The notes beneath the pieces were generated by a model. The model made no database searches. It saw nothing but the letters and a program-made list of their open reading frames with translations, and was not told the origin of the DNA. From Actinopolyspora lacussalsi (lineage in GTDB: Bacteria > Actinomycetota > Actinomycetes > Mycobacteriales > Pseudonocardiaceae): a DNA stretch of 64,000 nt. Positions 17,346-36,911 of the stretch are shown piece by piece. The stretch is taken from the NCBI GenBank assembly GCA_030803735.1, contig JAURUC010000001.1:4588001-4652000 (forward strand), given 5' to 3'. Made by a program: the position numbers and the translations under genes. How positions within the stretch are numbered: position 1 is the stretch's first letter; every line of letters begins with the position of its first letter.

Positions 17346-17382
17346 TAGCAGAGCGTTCCACGTCAGCTGCTGGGATGGTTCC

Positions 17383-17488: not shown

Positions 17489-17618
17489 GCGGTGCCGACT
17501 GCCGGGGTGGTTGGAGCTCGGCCTGCGGGAGTGGTCGGGGTTCGGCTCGGGAGCGCTGCGGCGCACGACCGTCCGGTGAGCTTCTTTCCCGAGCGAGGGA
17601 TTCTGCCGGGACGCCGAG

Positions 17619-19503: not shown

Positions 19504-19715
19504 ACTCCGGGGCGACGTGGTTCAGGCCCGCTTGCCGTTCCGGGGCCCTTCGTCCTTCATCGTCGATGAGTTCGTTTCCGACGGGTTGACCGGCCTCTCG
19601 AACCACACAGTGGGACGTGAGGGTTCGGGCGTAGCCGAAACCACCTGCCGGTTCGTCGGGTTTCGTTCCGATCTGTGCAGGAGAGAGGCTCAGTGCTCCG
19701 GTCGGTTTTCAACCC

Positions 19716-19743
19716 AAAAAAACATACTGTTAAGTATTTTTTT
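19716..19743. terminator. A/T-flanked hairpin, likely bidirectional terminator
   Basis: Stem ATACT (19724-19728) and AGTAT (19733-19737) around loop GTTA, preceded by a run of seven A and followed by a run of T to 19743. This is a classic intrinsic-terminator layout and is unusual for a high-GC actinomycete. It lies 210 bp after the nucleotidyltransferase stop. Confidence 0.55.
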
Positions 19744-19916
19744 CTTGTGGTTCATCTTCGGGTAACTCTTGACGTCGGTTCGCGCGCGGAGTGCCTGCTA
19801 TAGCTTTTTTTGCTGGTAATTCCGCTGGTATGTGGCGTCGACGCAGGCTCGTGGGGCGTTCTTCGCAGCTCACTGGAAGCTGTAGTGAATAGTGATTTAT
19901 GTTACATTTTTTTGCC

Positions 19917-19946
19917 TTGAACAAACAAACTGGGCGGTTTTATTTT
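19917..19946 (+). promoter_or_regulatory. possible sigma70-type promoter for the cyclitol cluster
   Basis: TTGAAC (19917-19922), an 18-bp spacer, then TATTTT (19941-19946), about 225 bp upstream of the cyclase start and in the AT-rich gap. The match is moderate, and in AT-rich sequence it could be chance. Confidence 0.3.
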
Positions 19947-20170
19947 TGTTGAGGCGGTGCGGCAGCCGGAAACCCCGGAGGCGGCCGCGAGGGTGTCCGC
20001 GGTAACGGGAGCGAAGCCCGTTCTCCCGTGGAGCCCACCGGACGAGCGATGGGGGACTGATCCGCTCCGTTACCTGTCTCGCCCGTGTTCGCGGGTCGAG
20101 CGCGTGCGGGGTGAGTACCCCGTGATCGGACAGTTGTACGAATCGACTTTCAACGGATTGTGAGCTCTCG

Positions 20171-21400
20171 ATGTCCATTCCCACTGTCAATCCAACACCG
20201 ACGAGCATCACCGCCGCGTTCGACCTTCCCAAGCCCCCGGGGGTCAGCTGGCGCGTCCGGTCCCAGCAGGTGGTGGATTACGAAGTGAGCATGACCCGTG
20301 GACTGCTGTCCACATCGAACTCCACGTTCGCCCATGCCTGCGGTGCCGATGGAAAGCGCAGGACTCGCTGTCTGGTGGTGGTGGACGATGCCGTGGAGCA
20401 GCTCTACGGCGAACGGTTACGTGCCTACTTCTCGGCTTGGCGGATAGCGCACAATTGGAGAGTCGTCCCCGGCGACGAGAACACGAAGCAACTCGACACG
20501 GCTCTCGGGCTCGTGGACGACATGAGTTCGATGGGCATACTCCGCCGTGCCGAGAAGATCGTGGCGATCGGCGGCGGAGTGGTGCTCGACGTGGTCGGTA
20601 TGACCGCGAGCCTGTACCGCCGAGGTATTCCCTACATTCGGGTTCCCACCACTCTGATCGGCCAGGTCGACGCGGGAATCGGCGTCAAGACCGGCATAAA
20701 TCACGGGCAGCACAAGAATCGACTCGGAACGTACTGTGCGCCGGAAACAGCTCTCATCGACCCCGAGTTCCTGCGCACCGTGGATCGTAGGCACATCAAC
20801 AACGGGCTGGCCGAGATCATCAAGATGGCTTTGATCAAGGACTCCCAGCTGTTCGATCTGCTCGAAGCCACCGTCGCGTCGATCGATCCGGAAACGCTCG
20901 CCGACTGCGGTCCGGCCGGTGGTGAGATCCTGTCCCGTTCGATCGCGGGAATGTTGGACGAACTCGAGCCGAACCTGTGGGAGAAGGTACTCGAAAGGGC
21001 CGTCGACTACGGCCACACTTTCAGTCCCTCGCTCGAACTCCGTGCCGACCCTCCGCTGCTGCACGGGGAAGCGGTGGCCGTGGACATGGCCATCTGCGTC
21101 GCTTTGGCCCGCAACCGCGGCCTGCTGTCGGAGCAGGACGCCGACCGGGCACTCACGCTCATGAACGCGGCGGGATTGCCGCTCACTCATCCCGTATTCA
21201 CCGCGGAGTTGTTGGAACGTGCGCTGGAGGACGCCGTCAAACACAGGGATGGCTACCAGCGCATGCCGCTGACGGCAGGTATCGGTTCAGCGGTGTTCGT
21301 GAACGACATCACTGCCGACGAGCTGCGAGCGGCGTTGTCGTTCGTGGCCCATCGCGATCATCGAGCGGCTGACTCGCATGTGCTGGAGAGCGCGCGATGA
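20171..21400 (+). CDS. 2-epi-5-epi-valiolone synthase-type sugar phosphate cyclase (AcbC/ValA-like)
   Basis: 409-aa member of the dehydroquinate-synthase superfamily that cyclises sedoheptulose 7-phosphate to a C7 cyclitol using NAD+ and a divalent metal. Seen: NAD-binding AIGGGVVLD (132-140), VPTTLIGQVDAGIGVKTGIN (158-177), NRLGTY, GLAEIIK (212-218; metal Glu and Lys), YGHTFSP (His282), LLHGE (His298) and KHRDGYQRMPL (357-367). The last block, GVKTGIN and GHTFSP fit EEVS/EVS enzymes rather than DHQ synthase or 2-deoxy-scyllo-inosose synthase. First gene of a rightward run; its stop overlaps the kinase start by 4 bp (ATGA). 2-epi-valiolone synthase is the main alternative. Partner genes strongly support a C7-cyclitol route. 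Confidence 0.88.
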   Translation: MSIPTVNPTPTSITAAFDLPKPPGVSWRVRSQQVVDYEVSMTRGLLSTSNSTFAHACGADGKRRTRCLVVVDDAVEQLYGERLRAYFSAWRIAHNWRVVPGDENTKQLDTALGLVDDMSSMGILRRAEKIVAIGGGVVLDVVGMTASLYRRGIPYIRVPTTLIGQVDAGIGVKTGINHGQHKNRLGTYCAPETALIDPEFLRTVDRRHINNGLAEIIKMALIKDSQLFDLLEATVASIDPETLADCGPAGGEILSRSIAGMLDELEPNLWEKVLERAVDYGHTFSPSLELRADPPLLHGEAVAVDMAICVALARNRGLLSEQDADRALTLMNAAGLPLTHPVFTAELLERALEDAVKHRDGYQRMPLTAGIGSAVFVNDITADELRAALSFVAHRDHRAADSHVLESAR

Positions 21401-22488
21401 GGGTGCCGGAGACGTTCCAGGACGAACATACGGGCGCCGCGAGTGCCGCGCGTGAGGCCGTGGTGTTCGACATCGGTGGTACTCACTTCCGGTGTGCCCG
21501 TTGGTCTCCCGAATCGGGAGTGCGTCGGATGTGGTCCAAGCCTTCGCCGAGCGTTCTCGTTCACCCGGACGCGGGCGCCGACGAACTTCGAACGCGGCTG
21601 ATCGACGAGATATGCGCCGGGGTGGGCCAGGAAAAGGGCACCACAGCCGGTATCTCGTTGGGAGCGGCGCTGGATCAGCGCAGTGGTGTGGTCTATGCTT
21701 CCGCTCCGCTCTGGGGTGACAGCGTGACTCGGTTCGACCTGCTGGCCGGGTTGCGAGAGCGAAGGCCGGACGTCGATTGGCACCTGGTCAACGACGTGAC
21801 AGCGGCACTGCTCGGACTGGGGGAGACGCCGCGGTTCGACGGGTTTCGTCGGCTCCTCCTCGTTACGGTGAGCAGTGGTATCGCGTGCAGGTTGGTGGAT
21901 CGTCGACTGCGAACCATCCCGGTCGACGTCTGCGGTCTCCAGGGGGAGATCGGTCATATCCCCTCCGGCACCACTCTCGCGGGAAACCGGGTGGAGCTGA
22001 ACTGTGACTGCGGGAGCCCGGACCATCTGGCCGCCTTCGCCTCGGGGCCCGGCATCCGCCGGCTGGCCGAACGACTCCGCGAGCTGGAACCGCGACGCTG
22101 TGCCGTCTCACCGCTGTTCGACGAGGACATCGAGTTCGAAAGTACGTTCCGCCGACTCCTGGACGACGATGATCCGCTCGCTCGGGAGATCCTCGACGCG
22201 GCCACGTCGCCGTTGGCGGATGTACTGCGAACTGCCTGGTGCCTGGACCCCTCCATAGATCGGATCGCGCTCACCGGGGGAGTCGTGGACGGTCTCGGCG
22301 AGCACTATCACCGCGCGCTGGCTGAGCGGTTGACCAGGGACGGTGTCTACCTGACGAGTCGATTCCACCCGGAATGGCTAGCCGAGCGCCTCGTGCGCTG
22401 CGACAGTTCCGAGGCCGATGGCCTGGTGGGAGCCGGTGTCGCCGCGGTCGGATCCGGACGTTCGGCCAGGATCGGGGTGGAATCGTGA
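21397..22488 (+). CDS. ROK-family C7-cyclitol kinase (AcbM/ValC-like)
   Basis: 363-aa ROK/glucokinase-type protein with the ATP phosphate-binding loop DIGGTHFRCA (25-34), a substrate segment VNDVTAALLG, GEIGHIP, and a zinc-motif-like NCDCGSPDHLAAF reduced from the usual CxCGxxGC. In the acarbose and validamycin pathways kinases of this family phosphorylate the cyclase product at O-7, and the position right after the cyclase fits that. It overlaps the cyclase by 4 bp and the next gene by 4 bp (GTGA), so expression is coupled. A plain glucokinase is possible from sequence alone, but context makes it unlikely. Confidence 0.8.
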   Translation: MRVPETFQDEHTGAASAAREAVVFDIGGTHFRCARWSPESGVRRMWSKPSPSVLVHPDAGADELRTRLIDEICAGVGQEKGTTAGISLGAALDQRSGVVYASAPLWGDSVTRFDLLAGLRERRPDVDWHLVNDVTAALLGLGETPRFDGFRRLLLVTVSSGIACRLVDRRLRTIPVDVCGLQGEIGHIPSGTTLAGNRVELNCDCGSPDHLAAFASGPGIRRLAERLRELEPRRCAVSPLFDEDIEFESTFRRLLDDDDPLAREILDAATSPLADVLRTAWCLDPSIDRIALTGGVVDGLGEHYHRALAERLTRDGVYLTSRFHPEWLAERLVRCDSSEADGLVGAGVAAVGSGRSARIGVES

Positions 22489-23621
22489 CGGGAAACGCAC
22501 AACCCCGCAACAACGCACTCGTCCGAGCGGGAGCTCGCGTCACGGTACGGCAACGTCCGACCCCGGTCCCGGCCGCGGGCGAGTTGGTGGTGGCCACCGA
22601 GGTCGCGGGACTCTGCGGCACCGATATCCAGATACTGCGCGGTTCGCGGAAGGAATCGGCCTCCGTGCTGGGGCACGAAGGGATAGCGACGGTGGTCTCG
22701 GTCGGAGAGGGGATCCGGGACTCGTTCTCGCCGGGGGATGCTGTCGTGATCAACCCCACCCATCCGAACGATCCGGGTTTCCTCCTCGGACACAACGTGG
22801 ACGGGTTGTTGCAGCGACGGACCCTCGTGCCCGCCACCGCGATACGAGCGGGCTTGGTCCTCGGACTGGATCGGCGCCCCGAAGCCGAGCTCGCCGCGCT
22901 GGTGGAGCCACTGGCGGTGGTCAACTACGCGCTACGGGCGCTGAGCCGGTTTCGGCCGTCGACACTGCTGGTGGTCGGGGACGGAACCATCGGGCAGCTG
23001 GCCGTTCGCTCAGCCGCAAGATGGGCGACGACCGTGAAGCGGACCGTGTTGGTGCACCACGGTGAATCGGGCAGGCAGTGGACACTGCGCTCCGGACTTC
23101 CACCCGATGACTCTCTCGTGGACGGCGAGGATATGACGGGGATGCTGCGCGAGGGGCCGGTCGGAGTCCTACTGGCCACCCCGAGGGAGAGCACGGGGCC
23201 TTGCCTGGAACGAGTGCTGCGTTCCGTCGGAGACGGTTCGGTCATCGACGTCATCGGCGGAGTACCCCCCGGACTTACCGTGAAAAGCCTTCCCGGAACC
23301 GATCTGGCGGGAATCCGGGCGGCGAACCTCGCCGGGCGACCCGATGTCCCCTTGACTGCCGAACGCACCGCGACAACGGGAAGTCGGATCAACTTGTTCG
23401 GCCATCGGGGGGTGTCCAACGCTCACCTCGGCACGGCTGTCTCCGAACTGGTCCGCAGTCCGGAGCGGTACCGGGAGCTGATCACCCATATCGGGGATCT
23501 CGAATACGCGTCACGAATCATGAGCGACCTCGCCCGCGGCAACGAGCGAATCGCCGATGGCCGAAGAGTGATCAAGCTGGCTGTCCGGGTGACACCGACC
23601 TGTCGAAAAGGAGACGACTGA
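22485..23621 (+). CDS. zinc-type medium-chain dehydrogenase, AcbL-like cyclitol oxidoreductase
   Basis: 378-aa MDR enzyme starting at GTG 22485 in the kinase stop. GLCGTD (catalytic Cys44) and GHEG (His64-Glu65) supply the catalytic zinc ligands, and LVEPLAVV is the usual third-ligand region. The four-Cys structural-zinc loop is missing, replaced by a short NPTHPNDPGF segment. The Rossmann region holds VVGDGTIGQLA. In the acarbose route AcbL, a sorbitol-dehydrogenase-like enzyme encoded after the kinase, works on the phosphorylated cyclitol; the order here is the same. Expected reaction: NAD(P)-dependent oxidation or reduction at a ring carbon. The exact step is inferred. Confidence 0.75.
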   Translation: MTGNAQPRNNALVRAGARVTVRQRPTPVPAAGELVVATEVAGLCGTDIQILRGSRKESASVLGHEGIATVVSVGEGIRDSFSPGDAVVINPTHPNDPGFLLGHNVDGLLQRRTLVPATAIRAGLVLGLDRRPEAELAALVEPLAVVNYALRALSRFRPSTLLVVGDGTIGQLAVRSAARWATTVKRTVLVHHGESGRQWTLRSGLPPDDSLVDGEDMTGMLREGPVGVLLATPRESTGPCLERVLRSVGDGSVIDVIGGVPPGLTVKSLPGTDLAGIRAANLAGRPDVPLTAERTATTGSRINLFGHRGVSNAHLGTAVSELVRSPERYRELITHIGDLEYASRIMSDLARGNERIADGRRVIKLAVRVTPTCRKGDD

Positions 23622-24388
23622 TGACGCAGTCCGATGACGAATCCCCCGCGGGGAAGCGCGCCCTGGTTGTCGGCGGCTCCACCGGTATCGGCAGGGGAAT
23701 AGCCGACGCCTGGGCCGCCGAAGGAATGGATGTCGTCGTACTCAGCCGAAGTGAACCCTCCGACGCGTCGAGCTCGAACCTTCGCTGGGAACCGTTGGAT
23801 CTCCTCGATGCCGCGAAGACGAAGGAGCGGCTCGCCGACCTCGCGGTCGATCCGTTGTTGGCGGTGTGTTTCTCCGCCGTCGACTACGGGGCGAAGCGCG
23901 CTCCGCTCGGCGAGGTCACCGAAGCGGAATGGCGAACCCAGTTCGAGATAAACCTCCACGGGTTGTGGCTGACCCTGAGCGCGACGCTGCCCGCGTTGCG
24001 TGCCTCAGCTCCGGGGCTCTTCGTGGGGGTTTCCTCCGAAGTCGTCCACAACGCCGGACCGATGCGGTCCGGCTACGCCGCGACGAAGGCGGCAGGGTCG
24101 GCCCTGCTCGATTCGGTTCGGTTGGAGGAGAGCACGGACGAGATCCGGATCGTTCAGGTGCTGCCCGAGGGGATGGTGGACACCCCCGGCATACGCCGCA
24201 GGCGGTCCTCGGATTTCGACTTCAGCTCCTACATGACTCCCGACACCTTCGCGCCGCTCGCCGCTGAGCTCGTGCGAACCAGGGGAGCCGAATTCCAGGG
24301 AGACAGCCTCGTGGTCGGTTCCGGAGGCGACTGGCGTTCGCTGTCCTCGGGGACTCCCGTCTCGCAGAGTCGGAGAGCGGGATCGTGA
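23621..24388 (+). CDS. short-chain dehydrogenase/reductase, AcbN-like
   Basis: 255-aa classical SDR: cofactor loop GGSTGIG (18-24), NAG-equivalent region altered (FSAVDYG), catalytic Ser138/139 (GVSSE), Tyr152 and Lys156 (GYAATK). TGATG links its start to the previous stop (1-bp overlap), and its own stop overlaps the next start by 4 bp. It occupies the place of AcbN between the MDR enzyme and the epimerase in the acarbose module, where an SDR reduces the cyclitol ketone (known for the pathway; inferred here). LSRSEPSDASS after the second strand suggests NADP preference (weak). Confidence 0.78.
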   Translation: MTQSDDESPAGKRALVVGGSTGIGRGIADAWAAEGMDVVVLSRSEPSDASSSNLRWEPLDLLDAAKTKERLADLAVDPLLAVCFSAVDYGAKRAPLGEVTEAEWRTQFEINLHGLWLTLSATLPALRASAPGLFVGVSSEVVHNAGPMRSGYAATKAAGSALLDSVRLEESTDEIRIVQVLPEGMVDTPGIRRRRSSDFDFSSYMTPDTFAPLAAELVRTRGAEFQGDSLVVGSGGDWRSLSSGTPVSQSRRAGS

Positions 24389-25218
24389 CCGGCGGGAATC
24401 CAGCGATCGGGCTGGCCGAGTGGCGTCTGCCGGTTCGTGGGGCCGAAGCGGTCGAGCTGGCCGCCTCCTACGGTGTCCGGGGGATCCAACTCGACTTCGG
24501 AGGTTCGGGGCGTGGGGTGCCGCTGGACACCCCCGGTAGGGCGCGCTCGCTTCGCCGGGAAGCCAACGGTTCGGGAGTCGAGTTGTTGGCGGTGGCGGGA
24601 AACCTGCTCAACGACATCGGCCTCACCGCGCCGGAGAGAAGCCGGGCGGCACGGAGTGCCCGCGGTGCGGTGATCGCGTTGCTCGACTCGGCCGTGTCTC
24701 TCGGCGTGCGACTGGTCCTTGTGCCGAGCTTTCGTGCCAGCACGATCGACGGTCCGGAAGAGTTGGAGCGGACGGTCAGCGTACTGCGGTGGGCGGCCGA
24801 GGAGGCTCGGACCCGGAACCTGGTGCTGGCCAACGAGAACGTGCTGTCGCCCACGACGGCGGTCGAACTGTTCGAGCGGGTCGGATCGGACTCGTTCAGG
24901 CTCGTGCTGGACACCGGGAACCCGGACGTGGAAGGGACGGACGTACCGGGACTCGTCCGAACCCTGGGGCCGCGTATCGCGGACCAGGTTCACCTGAAGG
25001 ACGGGCCGCTCGGACTCGGAGACGAGTGGCGTGGTTCCGGAGAAATCCGCGCCACTGAACTGTCGCGCGCATTCGCGCGAAGCGGGATATCGGTGAACTG
25101 GCTGATTCTCGAGAACGACTATCGCGTCGCCGATCCCCGTGTGATCGGCCTCGATGTAGCGGCCGCTCGTCGGTTCGCGGATCGGATTGTTCCAACCAAG
25201 ACCGGAGACAGCGGGTGA
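24385..25218 (+). CDS. AcbO-like cyclitol-phosphate 2-epimerase (xylose-isomerase-like TIM barrel)
   Basis: 277-aa sugar phosphate isomerase/epimerase fold. Blocks such as GLAEWRLP, IQLDFGGSGRGVPLD, AVAGNLLNDIGLT, ANENVLSP, DTGNPDVEG, HLKDGP and LILENDYR carry the barrel metal ligands (Glu, Asp, His, Glu). They closely resemble what I remember of AcbO (2-epi-5-epi-valiolone-7-phosphate 2-epimerase), including a GIQLDFGG...GNLLNDIGL layout. GTG 24385 overlaps the SDR stop; the stop overlaps the phosphatase start. This gene is the strongest pointer to an acarbose-type rather than a validamycin-type route. The reaction is by homology; a database comparison would settle it. Confidence 0.8.
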   Translation: MTGGNPAIGLAEWRLPVRGAEAVELAASYGVRGIQLDFGGSGRGVPLDTPGRARSLRREANGSGVELLAVAGNLLNDIGLTAPERSRAARSARGAVIALLDSAVSLGVRLVLVPSFRASTIDGPEELERTVSVLRWAAEEARTRNLVLANENVLSPTTAVELFERVGSDSFRLVLDTGNPDVEGTDVPGLVRTLGPRIADQVHLKDGPLGLGDEWRGSGEIRATELSRAFARSGISVNWLILENDYRVADPRVIGLDVAAARRFADRIVPTKTGDSG

Positions 25219-25871
25219 TGCACGTGTTTCTGAGTTTCTCCGCCCTGTTGTTCGACATGGACGGTACGTTGGTCGACTCAACGGTCGTGGTCGAACGCAC
25301 TTGGCGACGTTTCGCCCGTAGGCACGGTATCGACGCCTCGGAAGTGCTGGCCGACGCGCATGGGCGCCCCACCGGTGAGACCGTGCTGCGTTTCGCCCCC
25401 GACGGGGTGGACGTGGCGCGTGAGACCGCGACCCTCGTGGCCGAGGAAGTCGAGGACATCGAGGGTGTGGTTCAGGTGCCGGGGGCGGCGGAGTTCCTTC
25501 GCCGCGTTCCCGAATCCCGCATGGCGGTGGTTACTTCAGCCAGCCGCGAGCTGGCCGTACGGCGAATGGAGGCAGCGGGTGTACCACTCCCGAGCGTACT
25601 GGTGACCGCCGACGACATCTCCTCCGGAAAACCGGACCCCGAGGGCTACCTCAAGGCGGCGGAACTGCTGGGAGTGCCGCCGTCCTCCACGGTCGTGTTC
25701 GAGGACGCCGAATCCGGCCTGTTGGCAGCGGAGGCGGCCGGCGCGACTCCGGTGGTCGTGGGATCCCACGACCGCGCCTCCGCCGCGGGACGTATCGGAA
25801 TAAGGGATTTCCACGCGATAAGTGTCGCCGGATTCGACGAGGACGAGCGGGTCGGAATATCGTTCGAATGA
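25215..25871 (+). CDS. HAD-superfamily phosphatase
   Basis: 218-aa HAD subfamily IA phosphatase: nucleophile motif FDMDGTLVDS (Asp14, acid/base Asp16), motif II VVTSASR, motif III Lys in GKPDPEGY, motif IV FEDAESG. A cap domain of helices lies between residues 20 and 90. It is the last of six overlapping genes, so it should act on the same intermediates. The simplest role is removal of the 7-phosphate from the finished cyclitol, releasing the free compound. Because no nucleotidyltransferase follows, release rather than NDP-activation is the expected fate (inference). Confidence 0.8.
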   Translation: MMHVFLSFSALLFDMDGTLVDSTVVVERTWRRFARRHGIDASEVLADAHGRPTGETVLRFAPDGVDVARETATLVAEEVEDIEGVVQVPGAAEFLRRVPESRMAVVTSASRELAVRRMEAAGVPLPSVLVTADDISSGKPDPEGYLKAAELLGVPPSSTVVFEDAESGLLAAEAAGATPVVVGSHDRASAAGRIGIRDFHAISVAGFDEDERVGISFE

Positions 25872-25973
25872 TTACTCGAATTCTGCCTGTTCGGTTCCGC
25901 TGAGTCGGACCGATCGTTGAGGTCGGTGACGATTCTTCGCATGGATTGACTCGTAAACCCTTTGTGGGGAGAC

Positions 25974-27023
25974 ATGACCCAAAAAACATCTTCCGGTCGG
26001 CTGCCGACTGCCACGGTTTCTCTCGTGTTGGAATCTCCGGGACGGCTCGCGCATCGCAGTTTGCCAGTGCACGAGCCCGCGCCGGGCCATTGTCTCGTCG
26101 CGGTGGAACACGTCGGTCTCTGCGGCACGGATCTGGGTTTCTACACGGGTACCAGTAGCTACCTGCACACTGGTCGCAAGAGCTATCCGTTCGTACTCGG
26201 CCACGAGTGGAGCGGAGAAGTCGTCCTCACCGGCGAGGGCGTTACCGGCCTGCGGGAAGGCGATCGGGTGTCCGGGCACAACTTCAGACGTTGTGGAAGC
26301 TGTGCCGTTTGTGCGGCGGGCGGGACCTTTCACTGCCCGTACCGCACCGAGATGGGGGTTGTCGGCGAGGAGCCGGGCGCCGCCTCGGAGTATCTCTCCG
26401 TGCCCGCCGAGACGGTCCACCGGATCCCGGACGGAGTCGGTAATCGTGCTGCTGCCCTGCTGGAGCCGTGCTCCGCATCGGTACACGCCCTGCGACGGCT
26501 CGCGGTTTCCGGAGCGGACAGCGTCGCGATCCTCGGAGCCGGAACACTCGGCTTGGCGGCCGCCCAGTTGGCCGTTTCGCGAGGCGCGAGTGTGACGGTT
26601 CTCGACCCCAACCCCCGGCTCGCCTCCCTGGCAGCCGAACTGGGGACAGACCGCGTCGCGGATCCCGACGAGGTGCGCAGCGGTAACTACGACGTGGTTG
26701 TCGAGGCATCCGGTGCGAGCGAGGCGGTGCGTCAAGCGATCCGGCTCTGCGGCCAGAACGCCCGGTTGGCGCAACTCGGTACGCCCCACGGGCCGGTCGA
26801 TGCCGTCCCCGTCGACGAAGCGGTGGGGAAGAACCTGGTGACGCACAATGTTCTGTCCGGCGCGGACCACTGGCCGCAATTACTGGAAGAGGTCGCTTCG
26901 GGAAATCTCCGGTTGGAACCGATGGTAGATCGAGAGTTCTCTTTCCACGAAGCGGACAAGGCATTCGAAAGGCTGAACGACAGCGGGCGGGACCGTCCGA
27001 AAGTTCTGCTGAATATCCGTTGA
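25974..27023 (+). CDS. zinc-dependent medium-chain alcohol dehydrogenase
   Basis: 349-aa MDR enzyme related to threonine, sorbitol or galactitol dehydrogenases. Catalytic zinc: Cys50 (GLCGTD), His77-Glu78 (GHEW). Unlike the earlier MDR gene it keeps the structural-zinc cysteines (Cys107, 110, 113, 121). Cofactor loop ILGAGTLGLAAAQ, then VLDPNPR, an acidic residue after the second strand favouring NAD. ATG 25974 with GGGGA upstream; an in-frame TTG at 25962 is less likely. A 102-bp gap separates it from the six-gene coupled block. It may oxidise a ring or side-chain hydroxyl as a tailoring step; substrate unknown. Confidence 0.83.
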   Translation: MTQKTSSGRLPTATVSLVLESPGRLAHRSLPVHEPAPGHCLVAVEHVGLCGTDLGFYTGTSSYLHTGRKSYPFVLGHEWSGEVVLTGEGVTGLREGDRVSGHNFRRCGSCAVCAAGGTFHCPYRTEMGVVGEEPGAASEYLSVPAETVHRIPDGVGNRAAALLEPCSASVHALRRLAVSGADSVAILGAGTLGLAAAQLAVSRGASVTVLDPNPRLASLAAELGTDRVADPDEVRSGNYDVVVEASGASEAVRQAIRLCGQNARLAQLGTPHGPVDAVPVDEAVGKNLVTHNVLSGADHWPQLLEEVASGNLRLEPMVDREFSFHEADKAFERLNDSGRDRPKVLLNIR

Positions 27024-27048
27024 AATGCATATCACGAACGGGGCTGAA

Positions 27049-27951
27049 ATGCGTGCGGTAAGAATCGAGGAAACCGGGGATCCGGAGGTTGTCGGTATCG
27101 AGCGGGTCGAGGACCCCGCTGTCGGTGCCGGTGACGTTCTGATCGAGGTGGTAGCCGCCGGGGTGAACCCGATAGATGTGGCGACGCGAAACGGCACGGT
27201 GCCGACCGACCTCCCGGCCGTGCTGGGGTGGGACGTCTCCGGGACGGTGCGCGATGCGGGTGAGGACGTGACGCGGTTCGGCGTGGGGGATCCGGTCATA
27301 GCCATGTCCGCGCAGGCAGCCACCGGACGGGGAACCCACGCCGAGTACGTGGCGCTGCCCGAGAGTCTCCTGGCGCCCGCACCACGTGAGCTCGATCAGG
27401 TGGAAGCGGCTGCCTTGCCGTTGGCGGGACTGACCGCTTCCCAGACCGTGACCGAGCTCGGTTCTCCCTCCAACGGCGCGGAGGAATTGCTGGTGGTGGG
27501 GGCACAGGGCGCGGTGGGCAGCCTCGTGGTTCAACTGGCCCGGCTGAACGGCTGGCGGATCTCGACCTTCGTGCGGCCGAGCGACGTGACCCGGAAGCCG
27601 CCCCGGGGTGTGCTGCGCCAGTACTCCGAGGAACATCCACCACCTCCCGCCGGTTTCTCCGCGGTCGTCGACACCGCGGGAGTCCCGGAACACCTCCGGT
27701 CGGTGTGCGACGAGGGGAGGTACCTCACGACGACACCGTTCGCGCAACCGGAACCGAGTCGAGGAGTGCGGATCGTGCTGATCGGTGTGGAACAGGACGG
27801 TGACGAACTCGCCCGACTCGGAACTCTCGTCGACGAGGGAAGTATCGAACCGGGTAAACCCTCGGCTGTCGTCGACTTCGAGCGAGCGGACTGGGCGCAT
27901 CGGACACTCGAAAACGGTGGAACCAGGGGAAAACTGATTCTGGTCCCCTGA
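27049..27951 (+). CDS. zinc-free quinone-oxidoreductase-like MDR enzyme
   Basis: 300-aa NADPH:quinone reductase/enoyl-reductase-type MDR protein lacking zinc ligands: AVRIEETGDPEVV, GVNPIDVATRNG, LPAVLGWDVSGTV and the cofactor loop VVGAQGAVGSLVVQLA. ATG 27049 has CGGGG about 7 nt upstream; an in-frame ATG at 27025 almost abuts the previous stop and is the alternative. Such enzymes reduce activated C=C bonds (enones), which would suit saturation of a valienone-type double bond in a cyclitol pathway. That role is inference. It belongs to the closely spaced rightward gene run. Confidence 0.8.
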   Translation: MRAVRIEETGDPEVVGIERVEDPAVGAGDVLIEVVAAGVNPIDVATRNGTVPTDLPAVLGWDVSGTVRDAGEDVTRFGVGDPVIAMSAQAATGRGTHAEYVALPESLLAPAPRELDQVEAAALPLAGLTASQTVTELGSPSNGAEELLVVGAQGAVGSLVVQLARLNGWRISTFVRPSDVTRKPPRGVLRQYSEEHPPPPAGFSAVVDTAGVPEHLRSVCDEGRYLTTTPFAQPEPSRGVRIVLIGVEQDGDELARLGTLVDEGSIEPGKPSAVVDFERADWAHRTLENGGTRGKLILVP

Positions 27952-28000
27952 GAAACCCCGGGCGGGGCTCCTGGAATTACTACACGAAAGAAGTGAAATT

Positions 28001-29257
28001 ATGACGGTTGTGGAAGAAAAAGCCAAGTCGGAATCGGATCGGCGCAGATCTCGATTACCCTCCTTGACCGGGATGCGCTTCCTCGCGGCGCTGGCGGTTT
28101 TCGGATTTCATTCCTCACTACAGATACCCGCCAATTCGGTGTTCGCGCACGACGGTGTGGCCGACACGTACCAGAAGATCATGTCCCAGGCCGGTGCGGC
28201 GGGCGTCACGTTCTTCTTCGTGTTGAGCGGCTTCGTGATGACCTGGTCGTACAAGCCGCACGACCGCAACGTGGACTTCTGGCGCCGCAGGCTGGTCAAG
28301 ATCTACCCGAATCACGTGGTGACGTGGGCTGTTGCGCTGCTGCTGTTCGCGGCCGTCTACACGCACCCCTACCAGGCCGTGGCCAACCTGTTTCTCGTGC
28401 AGGCGTGGATCCCGGAGTACGACACCTACCTCAGCGTCAATCCGCCGAGCTGGTCGTTGTCCACCGAAGTGGCCTTCTACCTGCTCTTTCCGCTGGTGTT
28501 CGCGGTAGCGCGCAAAATTCGCGAGCAGTATCTGTGGTGGTTTGTCTGGCTGACCGTGGCGCTGGTGGCGATCACCGCCCTGGTGGCCTACGTCCTGTTG
28601 CCGGAGCATCCGCGTCCACCGGACGGCCTCCCGATCTCCACTTACCAGTACTGGGTGAACTACGTCTTTCCACCGCTGCGGCTGTTCGATTTCTTCCTCG
28701 GCATACTGCTGGCCCGCATCGTGCTGGCCGGAAGGTGGGTGCGTCTCGGGATCGGTCCACTGGTGTTGGCGCTGCTCGGTTGCTATACCGTTTCCCTGTT
28801 CGTGCCTTACCTCTACGGCATGCGCGCGGTGTGCATCGTTCCGCTGGCACTGCTGATCCCCGCGATCGCGACGTCCGATGTTCGAGGTGAGCGTTCGTTC
28901 CTCCGTGGCCGCACCATGGTATGGCTCGGTGAGATCTCCTTCGCCTTCTACCTGGTGCACGCCATAGTGCTCGTCACGGGACGCGAGCTGCTGGGAGACA
29001 GTTATTTCGGGACTCCGTTGGCAACCGGAGTTCTCCTGCTTTATCTGGTGCTGAGTATTCTGCTCGCCTGGGCGCTGTACGAGTTCGTGGAAAAGCCCAC
29101 GACGAAACACTGGTCGAAACCGAAGAAGAAGGGTTCCGGAAAGAGGAACTCAGCTGCCACGGAAAACTTGGGGGCTGGGGGTTCCCGGAACGACAGGGCA
29201 GTGGATTCCGCTGTCGGAGAAAACGAGAGCAGGAGCTCGGCGACCGCGGATCGGTGA
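28001..29257 (+). CDS. membrane O-acyltransferase, acyltransferase-3 family
   Basis: 418-aa integral membrane protein of the OafA/acyltransferase-3 family with about ten TM segments. Seen: the family motif LTGMRFLAALAVFGFHS with the conserved Arg and His, FFFVLSGFVMTW, FWRRRLVKIYPNHVVTW and NPPSWSLSTEVAFYLLFP. A long hydrophilic Lys/Ser-rich C-terminus follows the last TM. Such proteins move acetyl or other acyl groups onto hydroxyls of sugars, glycans or antibiotics (for example macrolide 3-O- or 4''-O-acylation). It is a paralogue of the gene at 30575; together they suggest a di-acylated cyclitol or two-step modification coupled to export. Confidence 0.85.
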   Translation: MTVVEEKAKSESDRRRSRLPSLTGMRFLAALAVFGFHSSLQIPANSVFAHDGVADTYQKIMSQAGAAGVTFFFVLSGFVMTWSYKPHDRNVDFWRRRLVKIYPNHVVTWAVALLLFAAVYTHPYQAVANLFLVQAWIPEYDTYLSVNPPSWSLSTEVAFYLLFPLVFAVARKIREQYLWWFVWLTVALVAITALVAYVLLPEHPRPPDGLPISTYQYWVNYVFPPLRLFDFFLGILLARIVLAGRWVRLGIGPLVLALLGCYTVSLFVPYLYGMRAVCIVPLALLIPAIATSDVRGERSFLRGRTMVWLGEISFAFYLVHAIVLVTGRELLGDSYFGTPLATGVLLLYLVLSILLAWALYEFVEKPTTKHWSKPKKKGSGKRNSAATENLGAGGSRNDRAVDSAVGENESRSSATADR

Positions 29258-29335
29258 CCGGGCGGAAATTCGGTTGTCGGCTGAATCGCCTCGGCTGTTC
29301 TCGTGGAACGTTACGAGATGCGACAAGGGGACCTC

Positions 29336-30535
29336 GTGTATCTGCGGATAGTCGGTCTGATCGTGGCCATCTTCGGGGTGGGTACGTCGGAACTAATGCC
29401 GAGCGGAATGCTCGAACAGTTGGCGGGAGGACTCGACATCAGTCTGGCGACCGCCGGACTGTCCGTGACCGTTTATGCCCTGACGATGGCTGTCGGTGGT
29501 CCGCTGGTATCGGCGGCCACCACGGCGATGACGCGGAAGAGGATCCTGCTGTTCCTACTCGGGATCTTCGTGCTCGGCAACGGCATCATCGCCGCGGCCC
29601 CCGGATACGCGGTGGTCCTGGTCGGCCGAGTGCTGACGGCTCTCACCCATGGAACCTTCATGGCCGTCAGCGTCGTCACCGCGGGCAGCATGGTTCCGGC
29701 TCACAAGTCCGGAAGCGCCGTGGCCGGGGTGCAGCTGGGCATCAATCTGGCAACCGTGCTGGGGGTTCCGTTCGGGACGCTGCTGGCACAACGGCTCAGT
29801 TGGCGTTCGAGTTTCGCGGCGGTGTGCGTCATAGCGGTGCTGGCCGCCGTGCTCATCATGATCACGGTACCGGACTCGGGCACGCCCGAGTCCTCGAGCG
29901 TGCGGTCCGAGGTCCGGGCATTCAGCAGGTGGAACGTCGTCACCACGGTGGTCGCGACCGTGCTGTGCTCAGCCGGGATGTTCACGATCATCACGTACTT
30001 GGCTCCGTTGTTGACCAGGGGAACGGGGTTTCCGGCCGAGGTGGTCCCCCTACTGTTGCTGGGTTACGGGGCCGGTTCCGTGATCGGCAACTCCGTCGGA
30101 GGCAAGCTGGCGGACAAGTCCCTGTCCGCGGCGACGGCGGTTCTGTCGGGGTCGCTGACACTGACCTGCCTCCTCTGCTGGCTGGGAACCTTCTCGCGAA
30201 GTGCCATGATTCCGGTGCTGCTGGTGTTCGCGCTGGTGACGTTCGCGCTGATTCCGTGCCTGCAGACGAGAGTGGTGAAAACTGCGGAGGAGGCTCCGAC
30301 CCTTTCGTTGACCGTGAACATGTCGGCATTCGGTCTGGGTGCCGCGATCGGTTCCTGGTACGGCGGAAAGATAATCGAGCTCGGTGTCGGTGTGCGGACC
30401 GTTCCGATCGGTGCCGCGGTTCTCGCGATCGCGGGAATGTCGGTGATCGTGATAACCGTACTTCTGGAGCGCAGGAAAACCGACGCCTCTCGTGCCGATT
30501 CGCGAAACAGGACGGCGGAAAAAGAAGTAATTTGA
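29336..30535 (+). CDS. MFS transporter (DHA1-type drug or sugar efflux)
   Basis: About 399-aa major facilitator with 12 predicted TM segments. The opening VGLIVAIFGVGTSELMPSGML is the TM1 motif of DHA1/AraJ-CmlA-like exporters, and GRVLTALTHGTF is motif C-like. GTG 29336 is used because AAGGGG lies 5 nt upstream and TM1 follows at once; GTG 29303 and ATG 29318 are in frame upstream. It lies between the two acyltransferases and probably exports the acylated product. A second exporter of the same family (32784) suggests either two products or import/export of precursor and product. Confidence 0.83.
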   Translation: MYLRIVGLIVAIFGVGTSELMPSGMLEQLAGGLDISLATAGLSVTVYALTMAVGGPLVSAATTAMTRKRILLFLLGIFVLGNGIIAAAPGYAVVLVGRVLTALTHGTFMAVSVVTAGSMVPAHKSGSAVAGVQLGINLATVLGVPFGTLLAQRLSWRSSFAAVCVIAVLAAVLIMITVPDSGTPESSSVRSEVRAFSRWNVVTTVVATVLCSAGMFTIITYLAPLLTRGTGFPAEVVPLLLLGYGAGSVIGNSVGGKLADKSLSAATAVLSGSLTLTCLLCWLGTFSRSAMIPVLLVFALVTFALIPCLQTRVVKTAEEAPTLSLTVNMSAFGLGAAIGSWYGGKIIELGVGVRTVPIGAAVLAIAGMSVIVITVLLERRKTDASRADSRNRTAEKEVI

Positions 30536-30574
30536 TTTGGTTCGAGTCGCAGGAAATATTGAAAAGGGAGCGAT

Positions 30575-31777
30575 ATGTCGTCCTCGGTAATTGGTGAGAG
30601 AGCCTACTCGGCTTATTCGAGGTTACCCTCGCTCACCGGGATGAGATTCATAGCGGCGGCTATGGTGTTTTTCTTCCATGCCTCGCTGACGGATCCGCCG
30701 CAGAACCCTTATGCGGACCCGTTCGCGTCCGATCTCTATCAGACGCTCTTCAGTAAAGCGGGTTGGATGGGAGTGTCCTTCTTCTTCGTGCTCAGTGGCT
30801 TCGTGCTGACGTGGTCAGCGCGTTCCACCGACACGATGGGAGGATTCTGGCGAAGGCGGCTGGTGAAGATCTTCCCGGCGCACGTGGTCACCTGGGCGCT
30901 GGCCATGATCCTGTTCGCCGCCGCTGCCTCCGATCCGCACCAGTGGTTGCCGAACCTCTTCCTGATCCACTCCTGGTTCCCGCAGCACGAGATCTTCATC
31001 AGCGTGAATCCGCCGAGCTGGTCGTTGTGCAGCGAGCTGCTCTTCTACATGTGCTTCCCGTTCATCATCAAGGGTGTCGTGCGGATCAAGCAGGAACGTC
31101 TCTGGTCGTACGCTGGACTGATGATCCTGGGGATGGTGGGTGTCCAGGTTTTCACCCAGTTCGTGCTTCCCGACACCCCGCAGACCCCCGAAGGGTTCCC
31201 GGTGTCGGTCTGGCAGTTCTGGTTCGGTTACAACTTCCCTCCCGTGCGACTTTTCGAATTCGTGCTGGGGATGCTGCTGGCGCGAATCGTGATGTCCGGA
31301 ATGTGGTTCCGCTCGCTCGGATTCGTTCACGCGACGGTACTGGCGGTTGCCGGATATGCGCTCGCCATGGTCGTGCCGTGGTTGTACGGGCTCAACGTGG
31401 CCACCATCGTTCCGATCGTCGTACTGGTGTGTACCGCCGCGACCGCGGACATCGAGGGGCGGCCGAGCGTGTTGCGCAGTCGCACCATGATTTGGCTCGG
31501 TGAGGTTTCCTTCGGTTTTTATCTCGCGCAGTACGTTGTGATATATTATCTTCGGCAGCAGATGGATGCCCGTCTGTTCAGCACTCCCTTGGGTACTCTC
31601 GTCCTATTGGGTCTCTTCTTCGTCACGCTGTTGGTCGGGTGGCTGGTGCACAAATTCGTGGAGAAGCCCGCCATGCGTCGTTGGGGACGTCCTCGTGGCG
31701 GCGGCGGGAGTTTTCTCGCCAAGCCCATGGTGGGACAGGAATCGACTTCCCCTGCCGGGGAGAAAGCACGGCTCTGA
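30575..31777 (+). CDS. membrane O-acyltransferase, acyltransferase-3 family (second copy)
   Basis: 400-aa paralogue of the acyltransferase at 28001: LTGMRFIAAAMVFFFHA, FFFVLSGFVLTW, FWRRRLVKIFPAHVVTWALAM, NPPSWSLCSELLFYM. The two are alike along the whole length, so the pair arose by duplication and the MFS gene separates them. ATG with AAGGGAG upstream, 40 bp after the exporter gene. Family members need the Arg/His pair in TM1, present here. Possible roles are acylation at a second hydroxyl or a different acyl donor (inference). Confidence 0.85.
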   Translation: MSSSVIGERAYSAYSRLPSLTGMRFIAAAMVFFFHASLTDPPQNPYADPFASDLYQTLFSKAGWMGVSFFFVLSGFVLTWSARSTDTMGGFWRRRLVKIFPAHVVTWALAMILFAAAASDPHQWLPNLFLIHSWFPQHEIFISVNPPSWSLCSELLFYMCFPFIIKGVVRIKQERLWSYAGLMILGMVGVQVFTQFVLPDTPQTPEGFPVSVWQFWFGYNFPPVRLFEFVLGMLLARIVMSGMWFRSLGFVHATVLAVAGYALAMVVPWLYGLNVATIVPIVVLVCTAATADIEGRPSVLRSRTMIWLGEVSFGFYLAQYVVIYYLRQQMDARLFSTPLGTLVLLGLFFVTLLVGWLVHKFVEKPAMRRWGRPRGGGGSFLAKPMVGQESTSPAGEKARL

Positions 31778-31857
31778 CGTAGGTTTTACGCCTGCCAGTG
31801 TTTCGTGACACGTCTTTTGCGGACGATTGAACTCTGTTTCTCTAGGAGGTTTTGGAA

Positions 31858-32640
31858 ATGAACGTGCAGTACGTTGAAGCGGCTGGTAAGCGGGTGCCGG
31901 TGCGTATCGAGGGGGAAGGCCCCGGTCTGCTGTTGGTGCACGGCACCGGAGCGACGGGGGATGCCAACTTCGGACACCTGCTGGAAAGTTTCACCCCCGA
32001 TCACACCACGATCGTGCCGGACTACGCCGGAAGCGATGACGACACTGCCGATCCGGGGGAATTCGCTCTGGATCAGCTGGTGGAACAGGTTGTGGCCGCG
32101 GCCCGCGCGGCAGAACTCGACGAACCCGTGGACGTGGTGGGGTATTCGCTGGGCGCTGTTGTCACCGCGGCAGCGGCTGCCAAGTACCCGAACCTGTTCC
32201 GCCGAGTAGTTCTCGTCGCGGGATGGGTCACCATGGACCCGAGGCAGCGGCTGGTCTTCGACCTGTGGCGCAGGCTGGCCGACACCGATCCGCAAGCGTA
32301 CTCGCGGTTCGTGACCATGCTGCTTTTCACCAGGTCGTTCATGAACGGTCTCGGCGACGCGGGGCTGGAGGAAGCGGCTTCCGGTACCGGTTTCACTCCG
32401 GCGACACTGCGGCAGATCGACCTGAACAGCAGGATCGACATCAGTGATTCGGTGGGAGACGTGGTCGCTCCCACACTGGTCATCGGCTGTTCACACGATC
32501 AGCTCATCCCCGTCGAACACGCGAGGCAGCTGCACCAGGCCATCGGACAAAGTGACTACGTCGAGCTGGAGAGTGGGCATCTGGTCGTGGTGGAAAAATC
32601 CGACGAACTCGTCAAGCACATTTCCGAGTTCCTCAAGTGA
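31858..32640 (+). CDS. alpha/beta-fold hydrolase
   Basis: 260-aa hydrolase with oxyanion-region LLVHGTGATG, nucleophile elbow GYSLG (Ser97), acid in GCSHDQLIP and catalytic His in ESGHLVVVEK, the MhpC/BioH-like order. No signal peptide, so cytoplasmic. Excellent Shine-Dalgarno TAGGAGG 8-14 nt before ATG 31858. In a cluster with two O-acyltransferases an esterase that removes the acyl group is the obvious role, either as tailoring or to reverse a protective acylation. A perfect-stem terminator follows directly. Confidence 0.82.
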   Translation: MNVQYVEAAGKRVPVRIEGEGPGLLLVHGTGATGDANFGHLLESFTPDHTTIVPDYAGSDDDTADPGEFALDQLVEQVVAAARAAELDEPVDVVGYSLGAVVTAAAAAKYPNLFRRVVLVAGWVTMDPRQRLVFDLWRRLADTDPQAYSRFVTMLLFTRSFMNGLGDAGLEEAASGTGFTPATLRQIDLNSRIDISDSVGDVVAPTLVIGCSHDQLIPVEHARQLHQAIGQSDYVELESGHLVVVEKSDELVKHISEFLK

Positions 32641-32658
32641 CGGACCGGCTCGGTGGAC

Positions 32659-32692
32659 GGGTGGGGCGGTGTCTCCGAACGCCGCCCCACCC
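32659..32692 (+). terminator. strong GC hairpin after the hydrolase gene
   Basis: Perfect 11-bp stem GGGTGGGGCGG (32659-32669) and CCGCCCCACCC (32682-32692) with a 12-nt loop, 18 bp after the hydrolase stop and 91 bp before the last exporter gene. No T-tract. It probably terminates or attenuates the main transcript so the second exporter is expressed at a different level. Confidence 0.6.
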
Positions 32693-32783
32693 GATCGAAG
32701 CGGCAGTCCGGGCCGGCCCGCGGTCGGCCCCGCCTCCTTCGGACCTATCGTACGAACGACCTGGTGGGAGTTGAATCGCGGAG

Positions 32784-34007
32784 ATGTCTTTCGCCGTCCT
32801 CGCCCTGATGCTCTGTGTGTTCTGTTTGGGAACCGCGGAAGTAGCGCTCTCGGGCATCCTCCCCGAGGTGGCCGCTGACCTCTCGGTCTCGATTCCGTCG
32901 GCCGGGTTGCTCGTGACGGCCTACGCCGTGGGTGTGGCCGTCTTCGGCCCACTGGTCACGCTCGGTACCCTGAAGGTGTCCAGCAGAAAGCTCATGCTCG
33001 GACTGATGGGGGTTTTCCTGGTCGGCAACGCCCTCTCCGCGTTCGCCGCCAACTACGAACTACTCATCGGGGCGCGACTCCTAACGGCCCTCAGCCACGG
33101 GACGTTCGTCGCGATGGCCGGTTTCGTCGCCGCAGGGATGGCGCCGCCGGGCAAGGAGGCCTCCGCGATAGCCAACATATCGCTGGGGTTCAACCTGGCG
33201 AACGTGCTGGGCGTCCCGTTGACGACGATGATCGGGCAGGCGTTCGGCTGGCGAATGACCTTCGCCGCCATCACGCTGGCGGCGGTGCTGGCCACTGGTC
33301 TGGTCGCCTGGCAGGTTCCTCGGAAGGACGTGCGTGGCGGCTCCACCGAGTTGGCAGCGGGCGGCGTGAAAGCCGAGACACGGGTGTTGCTTCGTCCCGT
33401 CGTGCTCGGCACGGTCCTGGTGACGGTGCTCGCCCAGGGGTCGGTTTTCGCCGTGTCCACCTACATATCCCCCCTGCTTCGGTTCGTCGCGGATTACCCG
33501 GCGTCCTCGGTGAGTCTGCTGCTTCTGGTGTTCGGCGCCGGGTCGGTCTGCGGAAACTTTCTCGGCGGACGTGTCACCGACCGCAGTACCAGCGTGGGAG
33601 TTTTCGGCAGTCTCGGAGTGCTCACCGTCATGCTCGTGGTGTTCTGGGGTTTCCTGCCGGTGTCACCGGCCGTTCCCGTTGTGCTTTTCCTGTTCGGAGC
33701 GGCGGGATTCGCGATCATACCGGCGCTGCAGACTCGTATCCTGCGGTTGTCGGCAGCCGCTCCGATCCTCGCCCTCTCGGCCAACGTCTCGGCCTTCAAC
33801 CTCGGTAACGGGTTCGGCGCCTGGATGGGCGGAACCGTGATCGAGCTGGAGTGGGGTGTGCGAAACGTGCTTCTCGTGGCCGGAGCGATCACCCTGGTGG
33901 CGCTTTCGCTGGCCTGGATCATCGATCGGTTGAGCAGAACCTCGGGCTCGGCACCAGCGGCGCACCGAACCGCCGAGTCGGAGCTTTCCGTCGGCGAGGC
34001 CGGTTGA
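32784..34007 (+). CDS. MFS transporter (DHA1-type efflux), second copy
   Basis: 407-aa, 12-TM exporter whose TM1 (FCLGTAEVALSGILPEV) and RLLTALSHGTFVAM mirror the exporter at 29336, marking them as paralogues. ATG with CGGAG close upstream. Lies behind a strong hairpin and may have its own promoter in the 143-bp gap. Last gene of the cluster; a palindrome follows its stop. Self-resistance or export of the cyclitol is likely; the related family includes chloramphenicol and sugar-efflux proteins, so the substrate is open. Confidence 0.85.
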   Translation: MSFAVLALMLCVFCLGTAEVALSGILPEVAADLSVSIPSAGLLVTAYAVGVAVFGPLVTLGTLKVSSRKLMLGLMGVFLVGNALSAFAANYELLIGARLLTALSHGTFVAMAGFVAAGMAPPGKEASAIANISLGFNLANVLGVPLTTMIGQAFGWRMTFAAITLAAVLATGLVAWQVPRKDVRGGSTELAAGGVKAETRVLLRPVVLGTVLVTVLAQGSVFAVSTYISPLLRFVADYPASSVSLLLLVFGAGSVCGNFLGGRVTDRSTSVGVFGSLGVLTVMLVVFWGFLPVSPAVPVVLFLFGAAGFAIIPALQTRILRLSAAAPILALSANVSAFNLGNGFGAWMGGTVIELEWGVRNVLLVAGAITLVALSLAWIIDRLSRTSGSAPAAHRTAESELSVGEAG

Positions 34008-34033
34008 GAAGCCGCTCCCCGCTACGACCGTCG

Positions 34034-34049
34034 GACGGTCCGGACCGTC
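34034..34049. terminator. 16-bp perfect palindrome ending the cyclitol cluster
   Basis: GACGGTCCGGACCGTC lies 26 bp after the exporter stop and before the end of the convergent effector locus. It suits a shared terminator; no T-tract. Confidence 0.45.
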
Positions 34050-34129
34050 GTCAACCCCTTGTCCGTTCCCGAGCGCCGCGGCCCGGCTACCTCGTGGGAA
34101 ATCGACGCCCGCGCCGGAAACCGCGCCGC

Positions 34130-34759: not shown

Positions 34760-34977
34760 TGGTGCTCGTTTCAGAAGATGTCGCCGACGAAGTCGCCGAC
34801 CGCGCCTGCGGCGTCGCCGAGCTTGTCGCCGGTCCAGCTCGCGGCGTCGCCCACCGCGTCCACGGCGTCGTCGCCCCATTCGTCGATGGCGAAGCCGACA
34901 CCGACGCTGACCACGACGCCGCCTGCCACGGCCCAGCCGACCGGGGTGCTCATGGCGAGCAACCCGGCGGTGGCAGC
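34130..34977 (-). repeat. tandem duplication, second unit (effector tail + partner)
   Basis: Second copy of a block whose first copy is 35004-35851; every landmark (partner stop, partner start, tail stop) is offset by exactly 874 bp. In the tail part I count only two base differences in about 205 bp. In the partner gene both ends are nearly identical and the middle is strongly diverged. Confidence 0.9.
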
Positions 34978-36892: not shown

Positions 36893-36911
36893 GTGTGTCG
36901 CTCCCCAGTGG

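Follow-up and report, generated by a model that had tools for sequence, protein, structure and literature searches.

Thirteen consecutive genes in the genome of Actinopolyspora lacussalsi are predicted to make and export a nitrogen-free, O-acylated C7 cyclitol with a valienol skeleton, a reading to which a probability of about 0.7 is given here. The genes lie on the forward strand at positions 20171–34007 of the stretch analysed (the window: 64,000 nucleotides, bases 4588001–4652000 of the 5.03 Mb single-contig genome), and combine a core cassette known from acarbose biosynthesis with a set of tailoring genes. The core cassette is not new, because 24 of 29 related loci outside Actinopolyspora share it and a C7-cyclitol cluster has already been predicted in Streptomyces lincolnensis. 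The tailoring set appears from sequence comparison to be the new part, and recurs in rearranged form in a second actinobacterial family. A known core together with a tailoring set shared by two lineages makes an as yet unassigned type of natural product testable.

A discrete unit with an acarbose-type core

The run from the cyclase to the second transporter, and nothing else, is one unit (the island) that is present or absent whole. The cyclase is found at 99–100% identity in three of ten Actinopolyspora genomes, and the other seven lack it. In all seven, the DNA match (blastn) stops at base 19503, where a nucleotidyltransferase gene ends (in one genome it extends by another nine bases), and restarts at 34109–34125, with 24 bases to approximately 1.8 kb of other DNA in place of the island. 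Since the edges agree in 7/7 cluster-free congeners, the run was gained or lost as one unit; its right end is only approximate because short blocks repeat downstream. The island is unbroken in the other two carriers (97% and 99% over the stretches compared; left parts in loci L003 and L004), and the cyclases of A. righensis and A. alba are the nearest named records, at 100% and 99% identity. The GC content is 0.639 for the island and 0.697 and 0.687 for its flanks, and the island was probably acquired horizontally. Downstream (window 34109–40000), a gene for a WXG-like secreted protein (35645–36994, minus strand) has near-identical copies of its 3′-end nearby (e.g., 34774–34980, 99%), resembling polymorphic secreted-protein loci.

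All 13 genes are on the plus strand, and the first six (20171–25871) overlap their neighbors by 1 or 4 bases (Table 1). The longest open reading frames (ORFs) for the first medium-chain dehydrogenase/reductase (MDR; 22374–23621) and the short-chain dehydrogenase/reductase (SDR; 23201–24388) begin too early, and starts at approximately 22485 and 23621 were set from overlap and homology. Pfam scans of the 13 proteins revealed no aminotransferase, nucleotidyltransferase, glycosyltransferase or methyltransferase family. The unit therefore has neither the aminotransferase nor the nucleotidyltransferase plus (pseudo)glycosyltransferase expected of a C7N-aminocyclitol cluster (acarbose, validamycin, salbostatin). 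It likewise lacks the mycosporine/gadusol signature, either desmethyl-4-deoxygadusol synthase (DDGS) with an O-methyltransferase or EEVS with MT-Ox, there being no methyltransferase family and no DDGS residues. A preliminary description of this DNA had listed the same coordinates and gene families, with six overlapping genes followed by two acyltransferases, a hydrolase, two extra dehydrogenases and two exporters; ORFs and Pfam assignments agree with it throughout. Its statement that the run holds no nitrogen or sugar genes stands for the 13 proteins, nucleotidyltransferase and glycosyltransferase genes being found upstream, beyond the unit edge.

Table 1. Coordinates of the island, its genes and the fusion frames of the second family (window positions unless a locus is named)
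Feature	Position	Strand	Basis or remark
Island (unit)	19504..34108		in 3/10 Actinopolyspora genomes
Sedoheptulose 7-phosphate cyclase, predicted EEVS type (AcbC/ValA role)	20171..21400	+	DHQ_synthase; ValA score, residues, tree
ROK-family cyclitol 7-kinase, predicted (AcbM role)	21397..22488	+	PF00480; syntenic in relatives
MDR, predicted AcbL-type 5-epi-valiolone 7-phosphate dehydratase role	22485..23621	+	ADH_N; L position in C-M-L-N-O
SDR, predicted AcbN-type valienone 7-phosphate reductase role	23621..24388	+	adh_short; syntenic in relatives
TIM-barrel 2-epimerase, predicted (AcbO role), AP_endonuc_2	24385..25218	+	PF01261; 49% to AcbO
HAD phosphatase, predicted cyclitol 7-phosphate release	25215..25871	+	PF00702/PF13419
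Zn-dependent polyol/cyclitol dehydrogenase MDR2, predicted	25962..27023	+	ADH_N + ADH_zinc_N, Zn motifs
QOR-like MDR, likely enone reductase	27025..27951	+	Pfam; best genome match of L150 QOR
AT3 membrane acyltransferase 1	28001..29257	+	PF01757; R-x10-H motif
MFS transporter 1	29303..30535	+	MFS_1
AT3 membrane acyltransferase 2	30575..31777	+	PF01757; 48% to acyltransferase 1
Alpha/beta hydrolase, esterase type	31852..32640	+	PF00561; carboxylesterase 8qzu E 1.3e-52
MFS transporter 2	32784..34007	+	MFS_1; 40% to transporter 1
AT3-MDR2 fusion frame	L133:14894-17137		
AT3-MDR2 fusion frame	L149:9878-13072	-	
AT3-MDR2 fusion frame	L150:13196-16234		

The window cyclase appears to be of the 2-epi-5-epi-valiolone synthase (EEVS) type and is predicted to form 2-epi-5-epi-valiolone. 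Compared with solved structures, it scores 394 bits with 4p53, 240 with 5tpr, 144 with the best 3-dehydroquinate synthase (DHQS) and 95.5 with 2-deoxy-scyllo-inosose synthase (DOIS); 4p53 is taken to be the validamycin EEVS ValA, and 5tpr the DDGS of A. variabilis. Three positions that separate ValA from 5tpr read L/D/H in the window cyclase, as in ValA, and E/A/T in 5tpr and 17 genome rows. The diagnostic use and numbering of these positions presumably derive from the ValA structure paper (Kean 2014). One row of the EEVS group (L099) has Arg in place of His360. Two fingerprint sites are mentioned in a legend within the accessible part of a 2015 eLife article (PMC4426668).

In the cyclase tree, the E/A/T rows and 5tpr form one 17-row DDGS clade (100/100), two DHQS rows stand apart (100/100), and the window cyclase belongs to a 22-row clade (98/95, starred) of actinobacterial core loci and three protein-only rows. 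The tree left out L003 and L004 (near-copies of the window), L027, L028, and L030 (broken or partial cyclases) and L118 (second copy of one genome). Placement of ValA itself is unsure because long branches were flagged (ValA, L035, L036, L103, L121, and others). A DHQS identity was rejected on bit score and tree, and a DDGS identity on score, residues (no E/A/T) and tree; DOIS is separated by bit score only. Besides the island gene, the genome has one other cyclase match, which is DHQS-like and 30% identical.

The C, M, L, N, and O families of acarbose biosynthesis are contiguous in the window, and the full order is C-M-L-N-O-HAD. The accessible text of one report gives the acarbose operon order as acbVUSRPIJQKMLNOC (PMC7682106), so that the Actinoplanes sp. 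SE50/110 cluster shares the five core families and the M-L-N-O order with the window, but has its cyclase gene last rather than first. The window epimerase is 49% identical to AcbO (Actinoplanes sp. SE50) over 259 columns. As described in the available portions of two acarbose papers, AcbM, AcbO, AcbL, and AcbN convert 2-epi-5-epi-valiolone to valienol 7-phosphate, the AcbL product being the dehydrated valienone 7-phosphate (PMC7081202, PMC9200736). One of these also describes in vitro removal of phosphate from cyclitol phosphates by AcbJ (PMC7081202), the role assigned here to the HAD protein, which is 57–67% identical to HAD proteins of related loci (types B, C, and D below; 62% and 61% in L133 and L150). 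The first MDR (22485–23621) has the catalytic Zn motif, and a motif scan found no structural Cys motif in it; neither the epimerase nor the ROK kinase had a PDB match at 1e-3. In contrast to acarbose, the run lacks aminotransferase, nucleotidyltransferase, glycosyltransferase and pseudoglycosyltransferase families (Pfam), and adds two AT3 proteins, MDR2, a quinone oxidoreductase-like (QOR) MDR and an esterase.

The EEVS-type cyclase, the AcbO-like epimerase and the acarbose-like C + M-L-N-O composition and order proposed in the preliminary description are thus borne out, by ValA score, L/D/H residues and tree, by AcbO identity, and by Pfam families and acb operon order, respectively. Its remark that the product matched no described pathway is not supported in that form. 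According to the accessible texts, each enzyme on the route to valienol 7-phosphate has been described for acarbose (PMC7081202), valienol/streptol is known in free form (PMC10131216, PMC8599487), and a C7-cyclitol cluster was predicted in S. lincolnensis (PMC10717218).

Tailoring genes and their recurrence in a second family

MDR2 carries both catalytic and structural Zn motifs, and most closely matches Zn-dehydrogenases of ketose/sorbitol, threonine and inosose type. In another actinobacterial family, an AT3 domain and an MDR2 domain occupy one open frame beside core genes in 3/3 genomes of one genus. A search with MDR2 at E<=1e-60 retrieved these three genomes among 197 of that family, in every case beside core genes. 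The fused frames encode 747 amino acids in L133, and 1012 and 1064 in the other two, in which (L149, L150) the start is unsure; their C-terminal parts are 49–50% identical to MDR2. L133 and L150 are whole loci, and the L149 contig ends inside the core.

The tailoring genes of L133 comprise an AT3 gene (46% to acyltransferase 2), followed by a weak hydrolase match (25%), a divergent QOR (39%), the 747-residue fusion with its MDR domain (49% to MDR2), and a partial MFS match (32%). Its core proteins are 47% (cyclase), 55% (SDR), 62% (HAD), 37% (ROK), 35% (MDR), and 33% (TIM barrel) identical to those of the window. L150 shows the same set: stand-alone AT3, hydrolase, QOR, full core, HAD, fusion, and a weak MFS match. 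The stand-alone AT3 protein of L150 is 42% and 48% identical to acyltransferases 1 and 2 of the island, which are its only matches in the window genome at E<=0.001. Similarly, the island QOR is the best match of the L150 QOR in the window genome (3.8e-44; next 7.3e-21). Outside this family, a Streptomyces strain (sp. SP18CS02) has an MDR2 match (54%), a cyclase (P0021) and an epimerase (P0149), each on a contig of 344841. Shared by two distant actinobacterial families, one of which has the AT3-MDR2 fusion, the tailoring set offers heterologous expression a compact and direct target.

Distribution and architectures of core loci

The cyclase search yielded 31 loci, two of which are the Actinopolyspora island. 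In 24 of the 29 others, C, M, L, and O occur together (L027 is counted despite broken ORFs), and in 17 an SDR match (N) is also present; the remaining five are truncated or partial (L012, L030) or are three archaeal cyclases (L031–L033). Gene matches in these relatives were scored by tblastn at 1e-12. The acarbose-type core occurs beside very different tailoring genes, in actinobacteria and in proteobacteria, some of them plant-associated. Cyclase matches were found in 26/298 genomes of the order at 1e-70 (15 of 27 places being of E/A/T type), in 5/392 genomes of a Streptomyces-like genus at 1e-120, and in 6/396 genomes of the phylum at 1e-70, its own included. Exporter 1, searched in the phylum at 1e-90, was found in 1/396, its own genome.

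Type A loci (12 of the 24; core, MFS and another MDR) belong to Actinokineospora, Saccharothrix, a Nocardia-labelled strain, four Streptomyces and five proteobacteria, one of the latter being annotated on Agrobacterium vitis plasmid pRvVAR031a. Their MFS genes near the core are 49–55% identical to MFS transporter 2 in all 12; at the above threshold 12/12 lack a HAD match and 11/12 an AT3 match. S. violascens L010 (type A) and the truncated S. tricolor locus L012 have an added AT3 gene (58% and 60% to acyltransferase 2) and transporters 54% and 52% identical to MFS transporter 1. Type B (three loci) combines a BBE oxidase, the core, HAD and a PF00144 protein. Type C (seven loci) has C-M-L-O, HAD, PF00144 and a branched-chain 2-oxoacid dehydrogenase E1, often with BBE and an aldo-keto reductase and without an SDR match. 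The two type D loci, from metagenome-assembled genomes (MAGs) of gammaproteobacteria (L022, L026), have C-M-L-N-O-HAD in window order, followed by AT3 (27% and 22%; that of L022 confirmed by Pfam), PF00144 and MFS.

S. lincolnensis is reportedly a source of rancinamycins. Its cyclase (P0017) is 72% identical to the window cyclase and groups with those of the type B loci L005, L011, and L008, in which a BBE oxidase and a PF00144 protein are present and, unlike in the window, MDR2, QOR and AT3 matches are absent. As far as the accessible text goes, the S. lincolnensis region (SLCG_5038, SLCG_5041) is a predicted C7-cyclitol cluster in which, as in the window, a HAD protein accompanies an AcbL-like MDR; four carbasugars isolated from the species are cited (PMC10717218).

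Several loci have features of their own. A core with HAD, PF00144 and a branched-chain 2-oxoacid dehydrogenase, without a close SDR, is seen in Streptomyces L014, L016, L018–L021, L029, and L144. PF00144 is a beta-lactamase fold with LovD-like acyltransferases among its members, and the product of these loci is perhaps a further acylated cyclitol whose acyl group is branched. Proteobacterial loci L025, L034 (A. vitis pRvVAR031a), L024, L027, L028, and L030 have the core with MFS (and in some cases MDR) behind a LysR-type regulator; some hosts are plant- or insect-associated, and the loci are candidates for free valienol/streptol, with cyclase or other genes broken or partial in L027, L028, and L030. 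The cyclases of the Thermoplasmata archaeal MAGs (L031, L032, L033) are 32–36% identical to the window cyclase and have no other core gene matches beside them. In L126, from the same family as the window, an EEVS-type cyclase (52%) adjoins a BBE oxidase, AT3 (44%), a cupin-domain ORF and MFS, without M-L-N-O matches, and another acylated cyclitol type is possible. A DegT aminotransferase of S. clavuligerus (L035), used to probe the core loci for nitrogen genes, gave besides itself partial matches in L124 and L125 only; a single sequence of this kind does not prove absence, and the probed set did not include L030, L149, and L150.

Predicted product and alternatives

Core steps can be assigned because the proteins match characterized acarbose enzymes by homology or position. 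The cyclase would convert sedoheptulose 7-phosphate to 2-epi-5-epi-valiolone, the ROK kinase would phosphorylate O7, the TIM-barrel protein would epimerize C2, the first MDR would dehydrate 5-epi-valiolone 7-phosphate to valienone 7-phosphate, and the SDR would reduce this to valienol 7-phosphate. The HAD protein may then remove the phosphate and MDR2 may oxidize a ring hydroxyl, with the QOR-like MDR acting in enone reduction or detoxification. With acyl-CoA as donor, the two AT3 membrane enzymes would esterify hydroxyls; the hydrolase, of esterase type, might trim or reverse this acylation, and the MFS pair would export the product. The acyl group, the position of acylation and the ring oxidation are all predictions. 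That the product is nitrogen-free and O-acylated, as first proposed, is still the best reading, and is strengthened because the tailoring set occurs again in a second lineage; the valiolone type proposed beside it is less likely, because AcbL- and AcbN-position genes are both present. No publication was recognized as describing this gene content in a search that mostly did not extend to subscription journals.

Several observations weigh against a nitrogen-free, O-acylated product. The M, L, and N roles were set by family and position, and close relatives of the window core mostly have no AT3, MDR2 or QOR match. In the second lineage, the cyclase (L119) falls outside the tree clade of the window, and ROK, MDR and TIM-barrel proteins are only 33–40% identical to those of the window; the two sets may therefore have been assembled separately or have parted long ago. 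The hydrolase match in L133 and L150, directly behind the AT3 gene, is 25%, and orthology of the second-lineage MFS protein to an island transporter is unsupported, the L150 protein having a better match among the other transporters of the window genome. The AT3 family includes macrolide acyltransferases. Wall and exopolysaccharide sugars are further substrates of AT3 proteins, and for this reason acylation of the cyclitol is itself a prediction. Lastly, the island is immediately preceded by GT2, GT4 and nucleotidyltransferase genes, and nitrogen or a sugar could be added by enzymes encoded at other sites in the genome.

Such enzymes, or the upstream genes themselves, might yield a nitrogen-containing or glycosylated cyclitol, an outcome that is considered very improbable. 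Acarbose needs such activities, and the GT4 (13950–15092), GT2 (16203–17345) and NTP_transferase (18400–19503) genes are on the same, plus strand 0.7–6.2 kb upstream. However, the unit edge falls at 19503, and the nucleotidyltransferase was rejected as a cluster member since it is beyond this boundary and is present in 10/10 Actinopolyspora genomes, with and without the cluster. The locus at 13950–19503 is likely a housekeeping wall-sugar locus, 10/10 presence covering the nucleotidyltransferase only. Besides the absence of such families from the 13 proteins (Pfam), the sole aminotransferase among seven ORFs scanned in L133 was of class IV (ilvE-like) and at the edge, and is also present in L150. 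A pathway from a 2-epi-valiolone synthase (EVS), said to operate in Actinosynnema mirum, has hardly any weight here: the cyclase has the three ValA residues, and an AcbO-type 2-epimerase together with AcbL/AcbN-position genes fits a route from 2-epi-5-epi-valiolone.

It is also conceivable, if rather unlikely, that free valienol ((+)-streptol) is the end product, and that the other enzymes (MDR2, QOR, the acyltransferases and the hydrolase) have a different task, for instance on acylated wall or storage sugars, and are simply carried with the core. The HAD- and AT3-poor type A pattern implies that a valienol-and-export module exists without acylation. In the available parts of the literature, streptol/valienol is known as a free product (PMC10131216); streptol, a nitrogen-free C7 cyclitol attributed to an EEVS route, occurs free and as a glucoside in Candidatus Burkholderia kirkii, and the same parts do not mention acylation for its streptol/valienol or kirkamide, in contrast to the product predicted here (PMC8599487, PMC10131216). 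Nevertheless, the tailoring genes lie inside the unit boundary and accompany the core again in a second family, in which AT3 and MDR2 are fused, and HAD followed by AT3 is found after the core in L022 and L026 also.

Gabosines and COTC (2-crotonyloxymethyl-4,5,6-trihydroxycyclohex-2-enone) are nitrogen-free C7 cyclohexenones, O-acylated in the case of COTC, and represent the chemical class predicted for the window product. To our knowledge, no gene cluster is known for them, nor are any genes for tailoring of nitrogen-free C7 carbasugars. None was recognized in the literature for gabosines or COTC, one gabosine match being a reference-list mention only (PMC9108482). It is tempting to speculate, with low confidence, that the 13 genes are the first set for acyloxymethyl-cyclohexenone carbasugars of this kind. 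Released valienol would be acylated by AT3 and oxidized by MDR2 to an enone; in the second lineage these two enzymes form a single fused protein. Valienol oxidized at C4 would be a 2-(hydroxymethyl)cyclohexenone with the skeleton of gabosine C, and acylation of the primary hydroxyl would make it a COTC-type ester. The enone would alkylate thiols with loss of the acyl group, and QOR and the esterase may shield the producer. COTC is (4R,5R,6R) by the titles of papers, and C4-oxidized valienol would be (4S,5S,6R) by hand derivation; the stereochemistry differs, and the predicted compound would therefore not be COTC itself.

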